In this document: positions 1,825 through 47,908 of the stretch, piece after piece
Layout of the letters: every line of letters starts with the position of its first letter
Numbering within the stretch: the stretch's first letter is position 1
DNA from: Daucus carota subsp. sativus
Lineage: Eukaryota; Streptophyta; Magnoliopsida; Apiales; Apiaceae
NCBI RefSeq assembly: GCF_001625215.2
Contig: NC_030383.2
Span: forward strand, 40,668,380 to 40,732,379
Reading direction: 5' to 3'
Length of the DNA: 64,000 nucleotides
The notes under the pieces: generated by a model
Seen by the model: only the letters and a program-made list of their open reading frames with translations
What the model was told of the DNA's origin: nothing
Databases searched by the model: none
Made by a program: the position numbers and the translations under genes

Positions 1825-1893
1825 TTAATGTTTGCTTGATTGTTTTATAAAATGATTGAACGTGTGAACTTTATGTTTGTCTACAGATAAAGT

Positions 1894-4611
1894 ATGGCTA
1901 CAGAGATCACTCTGGTTCTATTGAATGCACAATCAGGAGATGGAACAGTAAGGAAGCAGGCAGAAGAGAACTTGAAGCAGTTTCAAGATCAAAACCTTGC
2001 TGGTTTCTTGTTGTCGCTCGCTGGAGAGCTTTCAAGTGATGAAAAGCCTGTGGACAGCCGTAAATTGGCAGGTTTGATTCTTAAAAATGCATTGGACGCT
2101 AAGGAACAACATAGAAAGTTTGAGCTTGTTCAGAGATGGTTATCTCTTGATGTAGCTGTGAAGGGGCAGATTAAGACATGTTTGCTTCAGACCCTTTCTT
2201 CTCCTGTACCTGATGCTCGTTCAACTGCATCACAAGTTATAGCCAAGGTTGCAAGCATTGAGCTCCCACAGAAACAGTGGCCTGAGTTGATAGTATCTTT
2301 GTTGGGAAACATTCACATGGTTCCTGTTCATGTCAAGCAAGCCACCTTGGAAACACTAGGTTATTTGTGTGAAGAAGTCTCCCCAGATGTTGTTGAGCAG
2401 GATCAAGTAAATAAGATACTTACAGCCGTTGTTCAGGGCATGAATGCATCTGAAGGAAATAATGAAGTGAGGCTTGCTGCTACTAGAGCATTATATAATG
2501 CTCTTGGCTTTGCTCAGGCAAATTTTACCAATGATATGGAGCGTGATTATATTATGAGAGTTGTTTGTGAGGCAACTTTGTCTCCAGAAGTTAAGATCCG
2601 TCAAGCAGCCTACGAGTGTTTGGTTTCCATCTCATCGACGTATTATGAGAAACTAGCTCCTTACATTCAGGATATTTTCAACATCACGGCCAAGGCTGTT
2701 AGAGAAGATGAAGAGGCTGTTGCTCTTCAGGCCATGGAATTTTGGAGCTCAATATGTGACGAGGAGATAGATATCTTAGAAGATTATGGAGGTGATTTTA
2801 ATGTTGCAGACTCAGATATTCCTTGCTTTTATTTTATCAAGCAGGCGCTTCCTGCTCTTGTGCCCATGTTGTTGGAAACTCTTTTAAAGCAAGAAGAAGA
2901 TCAAGACCAGGATGAAGGTGCCTGGAACCTTGCTATGGCTGGGGGAACCTGCCTTGGTTTGGTTGCACGGACAGTTGGGGATGATATTGTCCCACTTGTC
3001 ATGCCGTTTATTCAAGAGAGTATAGCGAAAGATGACTGGAGGCAGAGAGAGGCAGCCACTTACGCATTTGGTTCTATATTGGAGGGTCCTTCTCCTGACA
3101 AATTAACTCCTATTGTCAATGTTGCTCTAAATTTTATGCTTACGGCTTTAACAAAGGACCCAAATAACCATGTGAAAGACACAACTGCTTGGACACTTGG
3201 AAGAATATTTGAATTTCTTCATGGTTCAACTGTGGAGACGCCTATTATAAATCAGACCAACTGCCAGCAGATTATCACAGTGCTTTTGCAAAGCTTGAAT
3301 GACGTTCCAAATGTTGCAGAAAAGGCCTGTGGTGCTCTATATTTTCTTGCCCAAGGTTTTGAGGACGTGGGTTCCTCTTCTCCTTTAACTCCTTATTTTC
3401 AGGAGATTGTTCAGGCCCTCCTCACAGTCTCACGTAGAGAAGACGCTGGGGAGTCTCGCTTAAGGACTGCTGCTTATGAGACATTAAATGAAGTGGTGCG
3501 TTGTTCGACAGAGGAAACAGCTCCCATGGTGATGCAACTAGTTCCTGTCATTATGATGGAGCTTCACAATACTCTCGAGGCACAAGTACAGAAGCTTGTG
3601 TCTGATGAGAGAGAGAGGCAGAATGAGCTGCAAGGTCTTCTTTGTGGGTGCTTACAAGTGATTATTCAGAAGCTTGGAACATCTGAGCCAACAAAGTATG
3701 CCTTCATGCAGTATGCAGATCAAATAATGAATCTCTTCCTGAGGGTTTTTGCTTGCAGAAGTGCAACTGTGCATGAGGAAGCCATGCTTGCAATTGGTGC
3801 CCTCGCATATGCAGCAGGTCCCGATTTTGCCAAGTACATGTCGGAATTCTATAAGTACGTGGAAATGGGTCTTCAGAATTACGAGGAGTATCAAGTATGT
3901 GCAGTCACAGTTGGTGTGGTGGGTGATATATGCAGAGCATTAGAGGACAAGGTCATGCCCTTCTGCGATGGCATTATGACCCAGCTCCTCAAAGATTTGT
4001 CTAGCAGCCAGCTGCACCGATCTGTAAAGCCTCCAATATTTTCATGCTTTGGTGACATAGCACTGGCAATTGGGGAGAATTTTGAGAAATATTTGACTTA
4101 TGCGATGCCTATGCTCCAGAGTGCAGCTGAGTTGTCTGCCCACACCTCAGGTGCGGATGATGAAATGATAGAGTACACAAATCTTTTGAGAAATGGTATC
4201 TTGGAAGCCTATTCTGGGATATTCCAAGGCTTTAAGAACTCTCCAAAAACCCAGCTGTTAATTCCATATGCTCCGCATATCCTCCAGTTCTTGGATAGCA
4301 TTTATATGGAAAAAGACATGTGAGTTAATATTGTACTTGTGTTTACTTAAGTTCTGTTTGTGATATGTGTCGTATATCTCTAGCATCTAACTTAATATTT
4401 GTTGGCTATCAGGGATGACGTAGTAATGAAAACTGCCATTGGTGTCCTTGGGGATTTAGCTGATACACTGGGGAGCAATGCAGGTGCCTTAATTCAGCAA
4501 TCTATGTCGAGCAAAGACTTTTTGAATGAATGCTTGACCTCTGAGGATCACTTGATTAAAGAATCTGCTGAGTGGGCTCGATTGGCCATTCATCGTGCAA
4601 TTTCTGTCTGA
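1894..4611 (+). CDS. KPNB1: Importin subunit beta-1 (karyopherin beta-1)
   Basis: Carries cargo through nuclear pores by binding importin alpha and Ran-GTP. There are two coding exons: 1894-4319 and 4413-4611. The 93-bp intron has donor GTGAGT at 4320 and acceptor ending 4412, joining K-D-M to D-D-V. The product is 874 aa, close to the roughly 870 aa usual for plant KPNB1. The importin-beta N-terminal domain spans about residues 20-100 and HEAT repeats fill the rest. An acidic stretch (QEEDQDQDEGAWN, about residue 332) matches the acidic loop of HEAT 8 that contacts Ran and the IBB domain. The first ATG after the leader-intron acceptor is used, and the frame opens with the family's MATEITLVLLNAQS. 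The ORF reading past 4319 ends at once in TGA, which confirms the splice. Nothing looks broken; identity is secure. Confidence 0.97.
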
Positions 4612-4872: not shown

Positions 4873-4911
<39 letters not shown>

Positions 4912-7442
4912 GGGGGGTTATGGGTATGGAGGTGCAACTCTGCTGAATGGACGAGCTGCTTGACATTTCTTCTACATGCCTGGAGGTACAAGTGATACCC
5001 ATGAAGCTGGTCCTGCCAGGTTTCCAGGTGGTACAAAATTGAATGTACAAGTGCAAACAATGAAGGACCATCCATGACATAGAGACGCCACCTTTTCAAC
5101 TTTTCCTTGATCAGCCTTTTTTTTTTTTTTTTTTTTTTTCATTTTGGTCGGTTTCATGCATTATTAGTCCGAGTCGTCAATATTCAGGTCTGTCACATTC
5201 GGATTGCATTCCTTTTTTCAAATTCTTGCATGGTGGGGGTGGTTGGTATAATCCAAATTTAGTTAGGTCACATCATTTTGCATAGGTCCTGGTTGATTTT
5301 GGTCAGCCTACAGTAGGTGTTTTGTATGCAAGTGTTGAATACAGTGCATCCATGAAGTCATGTGTGCTTCAGTTTTTCTTTTTATCGAAGTACAGTTTCT
5401 CGTCATGTTTTGAGACGCTCGCTCTTATTTTGGTTCGCTGCCTAAATAGAAGTGGTATACTATATTGTAATATTTCAGATTGTAATGACAATGAAAGATT
5501 GTTCAAGTTTCACTTGTGCGAGGCAACGGATTGATAGTCTTGCTTTGTATTATTTACTTTGGTTTCAAGTTTTACATTATGCATGCCATCCGTATTTAAG
5601 AAACGAGTCTGTTTCTTGGGTATCACAGGACACTGAAGGAGTATAAGCTCCTACAGTTGGAAGATGTGATGCCTTTTCTTTCAGATATCTTGTTTAAAGG
5701 GTGTTGTCATGACACATTAGTTGGTATTTTGGCATATTTTGTGCAAATTTGTAATATGTTGTCATGGTTTCAGGTTAAGTGAACAAAATGGTTTTCAAAT
5801 GGTGTTGGGTTGGTGTGGTGCTAAAAGTTGTTTTTCATGGTTAGAGAACCTGCAGTTGCTTTGTCTTTCTGGCTTTAACTTTCAAGCAATTGTAGTTTAG
5901 TAAGTGTAATGTCACTGTTTGAGCTCAGTGAGCAGGCAAGCGTTTATCTCTCGTCAGTCCCAGGACTAACATTTCGATGATCTTATAAAAAAAAAATATT
6001 CACTCTATCGCATATAGACTTAAGGGTATCGCGGCATAACCAAATTTTAACAGGAAAAAAGATCTTAGGTATTCTGTTATGCGTCTTGTACATGTTAATG
6101 CACATAGAATGGGGATAAAGAGGGAGCAAATCCAATTTTATGAAATCAATTTACCTGCCCGCTGGATTAATGAAACCATCATAACAGATGTTCTGTCTCC
6201 CAACAAAACGAGATTAAACAAATGTTTTGTGTTAATGAATGTTGAAAACACAATTAGTGTAAAGAGTTCAGTACAGTAATTGTGCTTTGTTGTCTATCTT
6301 TTTGTAGTAGTGCTACCACTAATGGCTTACCAAAATTCAACTCTCTAAAGTCCTGCACACTGATTTTATTTATAGGTCACTGTCTGTTTCTGTCTCCCTC
6401 TCAGTACCATTTCATTTCGAAATTTAACGAAAGCCGAAACATAAGGATCAAAGGTGTTCCTAGGCCCTTGCCATATTTTTCGTATCGTAATATAATATAC
6501 CATGTTCCCATGGTGGATCTAGATTACCAACACGGATACCGTGAATGACTGTGAAAGCCTCGTGGGTACGGCCTGTGCACAAGACTACCGCATGAGCGAG
6601 CGTCGAGCGACATCGGTACAATAGTACATACATAGTGGCTCTAAAAGGAGTCACAACAAGGAAAAGCAGCATATGAGAGATAGTGAGGAACGAGAAATGA
6701 ATGAGAATTAGCATGAGCTATATGAGATGCCACTTGAGTGCACAAACATTGTGGAGGGCAGAAAAGTAGATTGACTTATAAAAGGAGAAGGCAAGAGAAG
6801 TATGATTACATAGATGTCAAGCTGAAAACGCAAAATCATCTGCGCCATGCAAAGGCTTGGTGAATGTAAGGTGTCCACATGCAAGCTATTGCTCCTCTTC
6901 TGATGTAACACCAGAGATATAGTGTAGTTGACTTTCAGATTGTGGTCTAAACCTAATGCATTTCATCATCATTATACTGCTCCGAATGCATCACAACCTG
7001 TTCTCCTAAGCCACTTTCCTCTCATTTTTTATATATATTTTTTTCTCATATGTTACAAATATTTTCAAGTACATACGGGAGGTGAAAATTGAAATTGTAT
7101 TTTGTATCTGATCATGATGAGGTCTTCCTCTGACTCCTTAAGATTTTAGAAGAACTTCACTTCTCAGCTGATCCCGCGGTAATTCCACGGTAACCCACGA
7201 GAAGTGAGGATCACAACCTATGATCTTAATCGATGGAAGCACTATAATTTTGAAGAGATTCCTTAAAAGTGGTAGCTTACCTTATTTTGTTTTTTTTCAC
7301 TCGTTTTCGTGAGCCAACTTTTGTTGGTTAAAGTCACTTTCTGTGCCCCTCTGAGCAAGGATAAAAGCACCCTCTTCCTCCCATTTCTCCCTCTCATCTT
7401 CAAATCATAGCTTCAATTCTAATACTGTTAATAAAACCAGCC
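4612..7442. other. Intergenic region with long homopolymer tracts
   Basis: This holds the importin 3' region and the PSY upstream region. A run of 36 G lies at 4875-4910 and a run of 23 T at 5117-5139; both are hypervariable and error-prone in sequencing. The short ORFs between 5.3 and 6.9 kb match no family I recognise. Near 7150-7210 there is a small imperfect inverted repeat around ACTTCTC/GAGAAGT. No RNA gene or transposon end is clear. Confidence 0.4.
7360..7367 (+). promoter_or_regulatory. Probable TATA box of the PSY gene
   Basis: GATAAAAG, followed by a pyrimidine-rich CCCTCTTCCTCCC stretch and then a short leader ending at the ATG at 7443. The spacing (about 75 bases from TATA to ATG) suits a short plant 5'UTR. 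It is inferred from sequence only. Confidence 0.5.
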
Positions 7443-7978
7443 ATGGTCACTAGAATTAAGACCTCTCACTTAATCTTCCTTCTCTTTCTGTGCCTATCTT
7501 CAGGTAATAAAAGTCTAGGAACAGTCTCAGTGTTCATTTCAAAGTATGTCACTAGCTTATCAAAGCGTACCATTTAACAAGTGTTTACATTTTTCTCTAG
7601 GCATGATCGAAGGAGTGAGCAATGGCATGAACCCCGCTAGTATGCTCCACGAGGTAAACCTTAAACCACATGCAGAAACTAGGAACTGACTCGACTATAT
7701 GATTTGAATGTATACGAGTGCACTACACGGCATGATACAGTATATTACGTTCAAGTAGATAGATAGGAACAAAAGATTAAGCTTTTATACTTCTTACGTT
7801 CGCCACTGGTTATTATGCAGAAAAATACTAACTTAGCTCATGTTTTGTGAAGGGCCGTGACAAAATGAGTTCAAGGAAGCTTCTAAGTCATGATGTCGTG
7901 CTAGACTACGAAGATCCAGGAGCAAATCCTAAACATGATCCAAGGGGGAAGAAAGGAGGAGGCGGCAGGAACAAATGA
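7443..7978 (+). CDS. PSY-family tyrosine-sulfated peptide hormone precursor
   Basis: Precursor of a secreted growth-promoting peptide. Three exons: 7443-7503, 7601-7653 and 7853-7978, with GT-AG introns of 97 and 199 bp. The product is 79 aa. Residues 1-20 are a basic start followed by a leucine/phenylalanine-rich hydrophobic core, a good signal peptide. The last exon holds LDYEDPGANPKHDP at residues 55-68, which matches the conserved PSY1 core (D-Y-x-D-P-x-A-N-x-K-H-D-P). Tyr57, preceded by Asp, is the expected sulfation site of tyrosylprotein sulfotransferase. The C-terminal tail is basic and glycine-rich (GKKGGGGRNK). Known PSY precursors are similarly short and are perceived by PSYR receptor kinases at the cell surface. 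Exons of 61, 53 and 126 bp keep phase throughout. The family call is firm; which PSY paralogue it is remains open. Confidence 0.9.
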
Positions 7979-9550
7979 TTGCAAATAACTCCTAGTTTCG
8001 AGCATCAGGCTGTCAAAGCAAATACTCCAGAGGAATTTGTACTGCAACATCACAGGATAGTAAGCGGCATATTCTAATTTCCCTACAGTATCACAGCATC
8101 CTTTCGTTTGAGGGTCTGAGGTGTTAAATTATACTATGATTGTAAAATCCTTCTATAAGGGTACAATAAGACCATAAAGGTTCTTTCACGTCTTAGGTAC
8201 TTTCAACACTCTCATCCGATTTTCCTCACACATCAAGGCTAATAGTTTTGTTGTCTCTCTATTTAAGATCTTTTATATAATAAAATTTATTCACTAATGA
8301 ATTTATCTAGACGACAAATCTAAATGATAAACAGGTTACCCCACCCCCCCCCCCCCCCCCCCCCCCACCCCCACCCACCAAAAAAAAAAAAAAAAAGAGA
8401 GAGAAGAAGAAGAAGACCCCCCTAGCTATAAACAAGCGTGCCAATTGTTTCATATGAGAAAGTTATCATTCTTGACTATTCATTTTTTTTCACTAATTAT
8501 TCTCTCAACTACTTTTGCACACATATATTGTGTATTTCCTCTTTGCAATCATACCAACATATTTGGATGGCTGCCGAAGAAAGAGTTGTCTCACATTAAT
8601 TAGATTCAGAGAATCATGAATGAAGTCTGCAGATGTCAAATTCTGAAGCAGTGAATTGCTAAGCCTATGCATGGATTTTACTAAGTTTTCATCGAACAAA
8701 GTGGTCAAATCAGATGTATAAGCTTTTTGTCGGCAGATTTAGGTTCTTAGATCTCTTCAAAGCTACAGGTCAAGCATTCATATTTTCTGGTATATTTCTT
8801 GTCTTTACAGATCTTATCCATAAACTATCCCCTCCATCCCCCTAATAATCATAGTTCTGACTAACTATAGTCATTATGTATATAATTTCAATCTTTTTCA
8901 TAGATCTATGTTAAGTGATTATATATTATAGTTACAATATTTATCTAGTGGGGAACCAACTTTGCAGAGCATCCAATGAATATGTGGTCTCTAAGTACTA
9001 ACTAAATCACTTGTATATCACAAATAAGATACAAGAACCTTAATTTCTAACTACTGTTTCTTTCCACTGACAATAACATAAAGCTTCTTAGCTACAAACC
9101 TAACTGTTCCCAGTATCTAAGCGATTGTAACATTAATTTATCTAGGTAATTCAAACAAACAAAAAAATGAAAAATGAGTATAATCATCCCCTTGCAAGGA
9201 TATGATGTTTAATATCTAATATTAAAACTTCTTTATTCATCATCCCTTGTAATATATGAACGAACTATTGAGTGCAACAGCAACCATGACAGACACAAGA
9301 AGTTAAATGAATCAACAATTGGTTAACATACACATATTAAGTAGAAACACATCAAATATCTATAACATTTAGCATTACAAGATACTTTTACAGAACTAGC
9401 TAGGAATTATATGTATTCTAATAAGATGCTAAAGAATGCCATTACGTATAATAGCAATAACATAAGGAAATGTACATGTACAGAGTATGCAGGAGATAAA
9501 AAGTAAATTTGTGTTAATTATTTATATACAGTATAACAGGGCCTCAGAAC
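7979..9550. other. Intergenic region between PSY and PP2C genes
   Basis: The two genes converge here, so this includes both 3' regions. A poly-C tract (8344-8366) is followed by CCACC units, a run of A and GA-rich sequence to about 8417. The remainder is AT-rich with no gene, transposon terminus or RNA gene that I can support. Confidence 0.4.
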
Positions 9551-21849: not shown

Positions 21850-22930
21850 ACTTTGTTCCAGGAAAAAAGTAAAAATTATTTGTAATAATGATGTAGTAAA
21901 TGTTGATAAAATGATACAGATAAGGTATTTATTAATATTAAAGATGATGATGAAAAATTGGTTAGTGTTGATGATGATAAAAAATCTATTAGTTATGATT
22001 ATGAGATTGATGATAATATAGATATTGATCATGATAAAGTAGATGGGGGTATATTTGGTGTAATAAATGAAAATATTGAAGTCCCGTATTTAAATCAAAG
22101 ATTTGAGAATTTAGATGCAACAGATAGATTTATCAAAACATATGTCCTTAAGATTAGATTTACTATTAAAATTCAGCAAATAAAAAATCGGGAAAAAGTT
22201 GATGAAATATATACTCAGATGTTTGTTTGTAGACTCGTGGGTCGAAATAAAGATGAAAGTGCTGTTATGGATGATAAATTGTGCGTAGGGAGTTGTAAGG
22301 GTACATGATGTCAGAATAAGATTCCTAGGAGTGATTGCAAGATTAGGATGTATGTCATCAAAAAACAATTATTGGGAATTGACTACACTTGAATTTGAAC
22401 ACAATCATGAAGTCGTGACTCCTAGTAAAATTAATTTGATTCAATGTGAAAAACATGTTAGAGTGGCGACTAGAAATCTTATAAAAATCTTGAATATTTT
22501 GGATACTGATCCTAGCCAAATATTGAGTCTTTTCAGTAAAATGAAAGGTGGAGTCAATAATGTTGGTTTTGACACCCAACATATTATTAGGAATGTCGTG
22601 CGTGATAAATGGAAGAAAAGATTACAAGTTAGTGATGCTTAAAAGGTGTTGATTTTGTTAGGTTGTCTACAGAAAGAGACCGGTGGGAGTTATTCGTAAA
22701 AACTCAAGTGGATGAAGAAAACCGTTTGAAAAATCTCATATGGCTCGTTCCTATATACTTGATAGCCTACAAAAATTTGGGGACATTGTTGCCTTTGATA
22801 TGACGAACCGGACAAATAAGTATGCCATTTCATATTGCCATTTGTGCTTTTTACAAGAGTGAACCATCATTAATAGTCTGTTTTGTTGGATTTGCAATTA
22901 TGTGAGATGAAGTTAAAACAAATTTAAATG
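21850..22930 (+). pseudogene. Decayed FAR1/MULE-transposase-type gene
   Basis: Conceptual translation in shifting frames gives the FAR1-family layout. First comes an acidic N-terminus rich in D and DD, then a FAR1 DNA-binding domain split by a frame change near 22305: YVLKIRFTIKI...FVCRLVGRN, then WELTTLEFEHNHEVV at about 22370-22410. Near 22709 follows VDEENRLKNLIW, the start of the MULE transposase domain, then FGDIVAFDMTNRTNKYAI-like sequence in another frame. At least three frame changes or stops separate these blocks, and the zinc-knuckle SWIM end is missing. It is either a dead FRS gene or an old MULE-type transposase remnant. Confidence 0.8.
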
Positions 22931-45240: not shown

Positions 45241-47908
45241 CTACTTTCTTGGATGATTCATACCTTCACATGCCAAGGTCCCCTCAAGATCTCCTATTAT
45301 TTTTGAGATTCTTACTTCAACTCCTCTCTGAACATCCTTAAACAGGGTAATTAGGCTCTCTGCAAACCGGTGCATGTCGATGTCTGCATGCCCCTCAGGA
45401 TGCTCTGTAGCCCCTAATAGTCCAGTTTTGATCTTGGTTTGTATTTCCATCGATTTCTGTCCGGTGGCAACAATGTATCTCTGCAGCTGAAATGTGTCCT
45501 CTAGGAAGTGTTCTAGCTTCTTGGTTTCTTCCCTTTTTCTTGCAATGACACTACTTCCACTGCTCGCGTAAATCTCATTCTCATGCTGTAAATCATGCAC
45601 GCACATTATTTATGAGCAAACAAATTTATGTGAATAAGTTGGTGATGTGTCAGTCTGAGGTGATTATATATTAAAATGTAGATTTTAGTAGGCATACCAT
45701 TTGCTTGCAGAGATCATCAATCTTTCCTTGGAGAGACAGATATCGGCTGACTTGTTTATCTAGAAATGAAATCAACATAAGGACTCCCTTTGTCTTCGAG
45801 TGATCAATATCCTTGGCTCCCCTGTCTTCAGGATTTTCAACCTTTCCTGTCAGTCTCTCGAACAGGAGCAATTGCTGTTTTATTCTCTTGATTTTGAATG
45901 AAACCCCAAGAGCGTTAAGATCCATCTTCCATGAATTGTTATCATTTTTTGTACTCAAAAGTTGGCTATCTGACGCTAACTTATCATCATTTATGACCAT
46001 TGCATTGTTATGGGCTCCTTGAATGGAACTTGGATCCAAAATCACAACTTTCTCTTCTTGAAAGTCCTCTGCTGGAGAGGGGGCCATCAGAATGATGTCC
46101 TTAGAGTAGTCTTTTACCGGGACAGCAGATTCTATCTTAGTGCCAACCACCCGAGACAATGTTGTTTCATACTCTTTATCTCCAGGCCTGCTCTTAACAA
46201 TTTTCACGTTGGACCAAATTGTATCACCAGTTATAGAAAGATCCTGTGAAGATGAGCTTGAGTTTGATCTCCTTAAACTCGGATGTTTTAATTGCAATAT
46301 TGATGCCTCTTTCAATGACTGTAATTCTGCTTCTCGGTTCAAAAACAAGGCTTCCAATTGGAGGTTTTCTTGTCTGATATGTGAGAGCTCAAGATTGAGA
46401 CCTTCAATATGAGTTTGGAGCCGCTTCAACTCAAGTTCCATGCTCAGTGAACGCCAATGACAACTTTCTAGTTTTTCATCCTTCAGTCTCATTTGTTCAG
46501 CAAAGGCATCTATTTCTTTATGATGCCTTTGCTCAAATGCAGTTGCATATTTTTCTGCTTCGAATCGAACCCAGCCCTCCATTTGTTTGAAATCTGCTAC
46601 AAGACTTAACATGATGAACATATATACAAAACGAAAATATAACAATTTAAGATAGAGTGAAAGAGAGAAAAGTACATTCAAAATGCAAAATGCCATATTA
46701 CCTAATTCCTCAGTTCCAGAGGGTTTGTATACATCAGATGAGGAGCAGGAATATTTTTGCTCATCTTGAAGTTCAGGTTGTTCATACTCAATTAGTGCAG
46801 TTTCTACCGATCTAGTTCTTCCTAATTGAGTTGTAGTTGTACTAAAAGGCATCCCCATTCCATTCAAAGAAGCCTCAAGTTTGGACTTAGCATGTTTAGA
46901 CAACATACTTCTTAATGAATGCCTTTCATGCTTCGCTTCAGAAGCTGTCCTCCACCTTTCTGTTTCCAGCTCAGCTTGCTTTCTCTTGGTCTTTGATAGT
47001 TTCACTTCCTTCAACAGCATTTGCTTCTCTTCCGTATCCAATTTAGATTTCCTTAACATAGCAGACAAAATTGTATCCTTTTGTTCCAAGTCCTTGCGCA
47101 TTCTAATAAGTTCCATGGATAGTTTTTGAGTCATCGACACAGATTGTTCCTTCTGCTCCAAAACTGAGTCAAGGTCTTGTTTTGCTGCTTCAACTTGTCT
47201 GACAGCCCGACCCATCTCAGCTTCAAGCTGGCGCTGGGTAGACACTAACTCAATTAAAGCAGTTTTGTGCTTCCATATCTCGGTTGAATGCTCTTCAACT
47301 ACATTTTTTGCAGCCTCTCTCAGTTCCTCAGCAACCGAATTAGCCTCCTTTAGTTTTTCTTCAAGATCCAAATTCTTCTGCAGCTGCTCCTTTATTGAAT
47401 TTTCTTTAGACTGAAGAAGAAGCTCCTTCTCCTGTAACTGTACATTGAGTTCTCTGATAACTTCATCTTTATTCTTTTCAAGACTTCTTAATTCATGAAG
47501 AAGAGCTCCAACTTGATGCTGAAGCTTCTTTCTTACACCGAACCAGCTCTGCTCTTGTGTAGCAAAAATACTAACTACTTTCTCATTGGCCTTTGCATCT
47601 TCACTTCTCCTACTCTTTAACTCCTCTATTTCTCTCTCCGCACTCTCCAGTTTATCGACAAGTTCTAACCTCACCCTATTATACACTTCCTTCCTAATAC
47701 TCCAAACAAGCAATCCCAAAAGCTGAGCACCCCCATCAAGTATTCTTTTTCTTGGTTCAGACCATCTCTTGCCATCTAAATTAGGCTCCAACAAGAGCCT
47801 AAGAGCAAACAATGCACAAGAAGCACCCAACAGAACAGGGCTCGAATTATCAGTTCTATGTTGAGATACAATCAAACATAAACCTCCTGAAACAGCCTCA
47901 TCACCCAT
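45241..47908 (-). CDS. Long coiled-coil protein with hydrophobic N-terminus
   Basis: Three exons: 47908-46702, 46596-45698 and 45585-45241, giving 816 aa. The intron at 46701-46597 is proved by the sudden non-coiled, phenylalanine-rich read-through it would otherwise insert. Residues about 20-45 hold a hydrophobic segment (SSPVLLGASCALFALRLLL), a possible membrane anchor. From about 80 to 350 the sequence is almost continuous heptad coiled coil rich in E, K, L and Q, with a second coil at about 410-500, a serine-rich linker and a third coil near the C-terminus. This is the plant family loosely labelled intracellular transport/USO1-like or ribonuclease P p38-related (At5g53020 from memory); neither label is backed by function. 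Coiled-coil length suggests a tether or scaffold, which is inference. Confidence 0.8.

Follow-up and report, generated by a model that had tools for sequence, protein, structure and literature searches.

PSY peptides are hormones placed between growth and stress. As described in PMC10519359 and PMC7913133, PSYR receptor kinases without a bound PSY peptide hold growth back and keep stress responses on. The sequence criteria published for the family in PMC7913133 are a peptide that starts with DY, a precursor of 60–200 residues, and a motif (DYXXXX[AP]NXXHXP) located in the second half of that precursor. The screen reported there also used a match to the PSY1 precursor at E ≤ 20, and the eight Arabidopsis PSY precursors that it covers all have a signal peptide. 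Two subtilases appear in the same source: SBT6.1, which cuts at an RXLX/RXXL site that AtPSY1-5 are reported to have, and SBT3.8, which has been suggested to act at the DY of PSY.

The described members vary in what follows the core. AtPSY1 (At5g58650), listed in PMC11534595 with a precursor of 75 residues, starts with DY and is printed with the tail GVPPS, which contains two prolines; PSY1 has two hydroxylated prolines, one of them bearing three arabinoses. AtPSY5 (At5g53486), for which four splice variants are reported, is printed in PMC11534595 as DYDDAGPNPKHDPRRRPGGKG, with a precursor of 104 residues, and the mature forms of PSY5, PSY6, and PSY8 were detected by LC-MS/MS according to PMC10519359. 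In soybean xylem sap, GmXAP5a/b are reported as DYDEAGPNPRHTKKPGKG with a sulfated Y2, and also as the shorter, tail-less DYDEAGPNPRHT (PMC9369194); since both forms were seen by mass spectrometry in sap, the basic end of such a peptide can apparently be either kept or trimmed. PMC10629525 reports that PSY mimics from nematodes and bacteria, when truncated to the core, promoted root growth in tpst-1, so the tail would not always be needed.

A probable three-exon PSY precursor gene

The window (that is, the whole 64-kb stretch of DNA analysed) very probably contains a small gene of ordinary build that encodes a hormone of this type. A three-exon gene for a PSY-family precursor at 7443..7978, on the forward strand, is well supported by the sequence: exons 7443-7503, 7601-7653, and 7853-7978 join into 240 bases, which encode a precursor of 79 residues and a stop codon. 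Exon 1 (61 bp) has the start codon in the context CCAGCCATGG and encodes the hydrophobic, putative signal-peptide segment MVTRIKTSHLIFLLFLCLSS(G), while the propeptide begins in exon 2 (53 bp). Exon 3 (126 bp) holds the propeptide stretch with RKLL, the PSY core DYEDPGANPKHDP (7904..7942) with its putative DY sulfation site, the basic and Gly-rich tail RGKKGGGGRNK (7943..7975), and the TGA. Both introns have GT-AG borders; intron 1 (7504..7600) is 97 bp long and in phase 1, and intron 2 (7654..7852) is 199 bp long and in phase 0. The frame is lost if the junction of exons 2 and 3 is displaced by one or two bases. A possible but weak TATA-like element, GATAAAA (7360..7366, forward strand), which is a consensus match only, lies 83 nt before the ATG.

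An earlier note on this DNA had proposed these exons, with their lengths, and a spliced product of 79 residues with a signal peptide and a PSY core; the sequence bears out the coordinates, the lengths, the open frame, the hydrophobic N-terminus, and the core. Its label of a "Cryptic three-exon PSY peptide hormone gene" holds as far as the three-exon PSY precursor is concerned, but "cryptic" is overdrawn. Short, split exons are normal for PSY genes, because eight of the nine tobacco genes reported in PMC12153210 have three introns and the remaining one has two. For wheat, PMC11641228 describes some PSY genes as having two exons and the others, in its own words, as having "three introns".

At the N-terminus of the product, K/R residues are followed by a strongly hydrophobic stretch, reaching a hydropathy of 3.08 in its best 10 residues (a hydropathy value, rather than a SignalP score), and the -3,-1 rule would allow signal-peptidase cuts after residue 19, 21, 27, or 29. 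Further along, RKLL occupies residues 46-49 and is separated from the core by six residues; it fits the RXLX rule for SBT6.1 and represents a putative cleavage site.

The core and its family

The core starts with DY, carries the complete family motif, and begins at residue 56, in the second half of the 79-residue product, which, on the criteria of PMC7913133 for the DY start, the length, and the place of the motif, is a PSY precursor. Eleven of the 13 core residues are those of AtPSY1, which makes "near-perfect" a fair description, and 10 of 13 are those of AtPSY5, which has DAGPN where this peptide has DPGAN. GmXAP5a/b, in which the final proline of the motif is missing, share only 6 of 13. 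The precursor is close in length to that of AtPSY1 and shorter than the 104 residues listed for AtPSY5.

A profile search with PSY cores points to this place alone in the window. When an HMM derived from nine AtPSY cores of 13 residues each was run over 3,499 sequences (the spliced product and 3,498 fragments of the window), the E-values were 1.5e-06 for the exon and 3.3e-06 for the spliced product, the next match being at 4.9; with an HMM from all 16 published PSY peptides, the corresponding values were 8.6e-07, 1.9e-06, and 1.6. A composition bias term of ~5.9 bits attaches to the two scores at the gene, those of the exon and the spliced product. Beyond short, weak matches, no second PSY copy or paralogue was found in the window. 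The Pfam scan of the 79-residue product returned no family, and the PDB sequence search with it returned no match, both at E up to 10. Of six exact strings taken from core and tail, five, the full 13-residue core and HDP followed by the full tail included, were absent from the text (as distinct from the figures) of the publications searched; the sixth, GANPKHDP, occurs in five papers, in one of them as part of the bacterial RaxX peptide.

Splice sites and alternative readings

Donor 7504 scores highest of all GTs in 5501-7903 and donor 7654 lies at the 99th percentile, while the acceptors of both introns are at the 95-96th percentile; these percentiles, like the model scores below, are based on splice-site weights that are rough and approximate. 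Acceptor 7852 (95.5th percentile) has AAG, not CAG. Splicing to any other of the four AGs in 7780-7860 would throw the core out of frame with exon 2. A perfect match to the branch-point-like sequence TACTAAC (7826..7832, forward strand) is separated from exon 3 by 20 nt. The AG at 7836, a frame-breaking site 16 nt before 7852, is likely too near TACTAAC to serve as an acceptor, whereas the AG at 7852 stands at a normal distance, judging by the spacing that is usual between branch point and acceptor. An acceptor further in (exon 3 from 7880) also keeps the frame, although the whole model then scores 9.06 versus 16.35.

A match by chance, or a DY-peptide of another family such as RGF or CIF, whose precursors also carry DY-led peptides, is barely credible as an account of this locus. 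The motif occurs once in the six frames of the window (7904-7942), and first-order Markov simulation produced one match in 300 windows and none in the 64 million bases that correspond to 1,000 more, which makes one per 1,300 window-equivalents, the analytic expectation being 0.00036 per window; the occurrence exceeds chance. As for the other families, the six RGF/CIF controls share at most 5 of 13 residues with the core (3 to 5 for RGF1-5, and 3 for a soybean CIF-like peptide) and score 8 to 29, whereas the 16 PSY peptides share 6 to 11 residues and score from 34 to 67, the weakest of them (34) standing only a little above the best control (29). The core exon might also be real and belong to a different transcript, for example one with another first exon or with a start internal to exon 3 that provides no signal peptide. 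Tobacco NtPSY6 is indeed reported without a signal peptide (PMC12153210), and the enumeration of models leaves room for other structures. When ATGs in 6401-7903 were followed into the core, with introns of 70-1500 bp, first and second exons of at most 400 bp, a second exon of at least 15 bp, and two-intron models with a donor score below 0 dropped before counting, the models open into the core numbered 379 with two introns, 155 with one, and a single one without splicing; 378 of those with two introns are other than the proposed one. That model, however, ranks first among the 379 (16.35, with the next at 13.12) and also among the 76 of these whose N-terminus is hydrophobic, where ranks 2-5 share its ATG and its first donor, and a different transcript is accordingly judged improbable.

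It is similarly improbable that the locus is a PSY pseudogene or relic, with intact coding exons that are no longer expressed, or that are mis-spliced into a product devoid of the core. This reading draws on the AG at 7819-7820, which outscores the acceptor at 7852 (4.64 versus 3.54; 99.4th versus 95.5th percentile). Splicing to this AG would close the frame immediately (...KNTNLAHVL, then a stop) and yield a shortened precursor that lacks the PSY core. Because this acceptor both scores higher and ends the frame, some mis-spliced transcript is possible. Against a relic, the frame, the splice borders, the signal segment, RKLL, and the conserved residues of the core motif are all intact, and TACTAAC lies downstream of 7820, suitably placed for the acceptor at 7852. 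The position of acceptor 7820 inside intron 2 also makes alternative splicing of the gene possible. The reading that is preferred over these alternatives is a plant nuclear gene that encodes a 79-residue PSY prepropeptide, which would be secreted, sulfated at DY, cut at RKLL and then before DY, and bound by PSYR-type receptor kinases, with a probability of roughly 0.9.

The basic, proline-free tail

The tail RGKKGGGGRNK contains five K/R among its 11 residues and no proline, and consequently offers nothing to hydroxylate or arabinosylate in the manner of a PSY1-type tail such as GVPPS. This tail had been described as basic and lacking the usual proline-rich end, with a conceivable effect on processing, and the description is half right. 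The basic make-up has precedents, since basic PSY tails are already known from Arabidopsis and soybean: AtPSY5 also continues from HDPR into a basic, Gly-containing tail (RRRPGGKG, with four K/R of eight residues), and GmXAP5a/b end in KKPGKG on a sulfated DY peptide. Nonetheless, each of these tails has one proline, and so do, at least once, all of the 11 comparison peptides (out of 16) that are printed with at least two tail residues. The particular feature of the present sequence is the complete absence of proline, which is less usual, together with the GGGGRNK end.

Among the peptides compared, core and tail are by sequence most like AtPSY5, with an ungapped BLOSUM62 score of 84 versus 60 for the next peptide, a comparison that favours AtPSY5, because the printed sequences of several others stop at or soon after the core and so offered nothing to score in that part. 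When the tail alone was set against that of AtPSY5, its score was reached by five of 20,000 random 11-mers and, when its own residues were shuffled, by 1,509 of 20,000 permutations. The likeness therefore concerns the basic, Gly-rich make-up more than the order of residues, and its use as proof of orthology to AtPSY5 was rejected for the same reason.

The tail also invites a more speculative proposal, which we regard as a long shot: a PSY5-like branch in which a proline-free, basic, Gly-rich tail leaves the end of the mature peptide without arabinosylation, the peptide being either held near the producing cell by the acidic pectin of the cell wall or trimmed by a basic-specific protease acting as a switch, so that it would serve as a short-range PSY signal.

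Genomic surroundings

The window has the look of plant nuclear DNA and gives the impression of a eudicot source. An importin beta-1 gene lies upstream of the PSY gene on the same strand (open reading frame 1891-4323; Pfam TPR_IMB1, E 1.9e-108), and further along there are Pfam matches to KH-domain, TPR-repeat, PP2C, and starch-synthase families. The Pfam scan covered 11 of the 36 listed open frames, namely the importin and ten others, five of which matched at E 0.001. Two overlapping open frames at 21910-22642 (forward strand) resemble what we take to be broken pieces of a FAR1/MULE-type transposase, the first of them giving no Pfam match at E 0.001. On the reverse strand, an open frame of 745 residues (45674-47908) looks coiled-coil-like by eye and has no Pfam match at E 0.001. 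The window gave no Rfam match at gathering scores.

Two homopolymer tracts flank the PSY gene. The only G run of at least 12 in the window (36 Gs, 4875-4910) lies ~2.5 kb from it, and the longer of two C runs of at least 12 (23 Cs, 8344-8366), near a run of 17 As, lies ~0.4 kb from it; both may be genuine low-complexity sequence or errors of assembly.

Proposed mechanism and meaning

By analogy with the known family, the product is most likely a secreted, tyrosine-sulfated PSYR ligand. The signal peptide would direct the precursor into the secretory pathway, where TPST is expected to sulfate the tyrosine of DY. Subtilases would then cut first at RKLL and next before DY, and the tail might be kept or trimmed. 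Once secreted, the peptide would bind PSYR-type receptor kinases, and the hold on growth would be released.

The picture of the PSY family is unchanged by this gene. What the locus provides is a clean model of a hormone gene with short exons that automatic annotation could miss, and a further candidate for the group of basic-tailed PSY peptides exemplified by AtPSY5 and GmXAP5.
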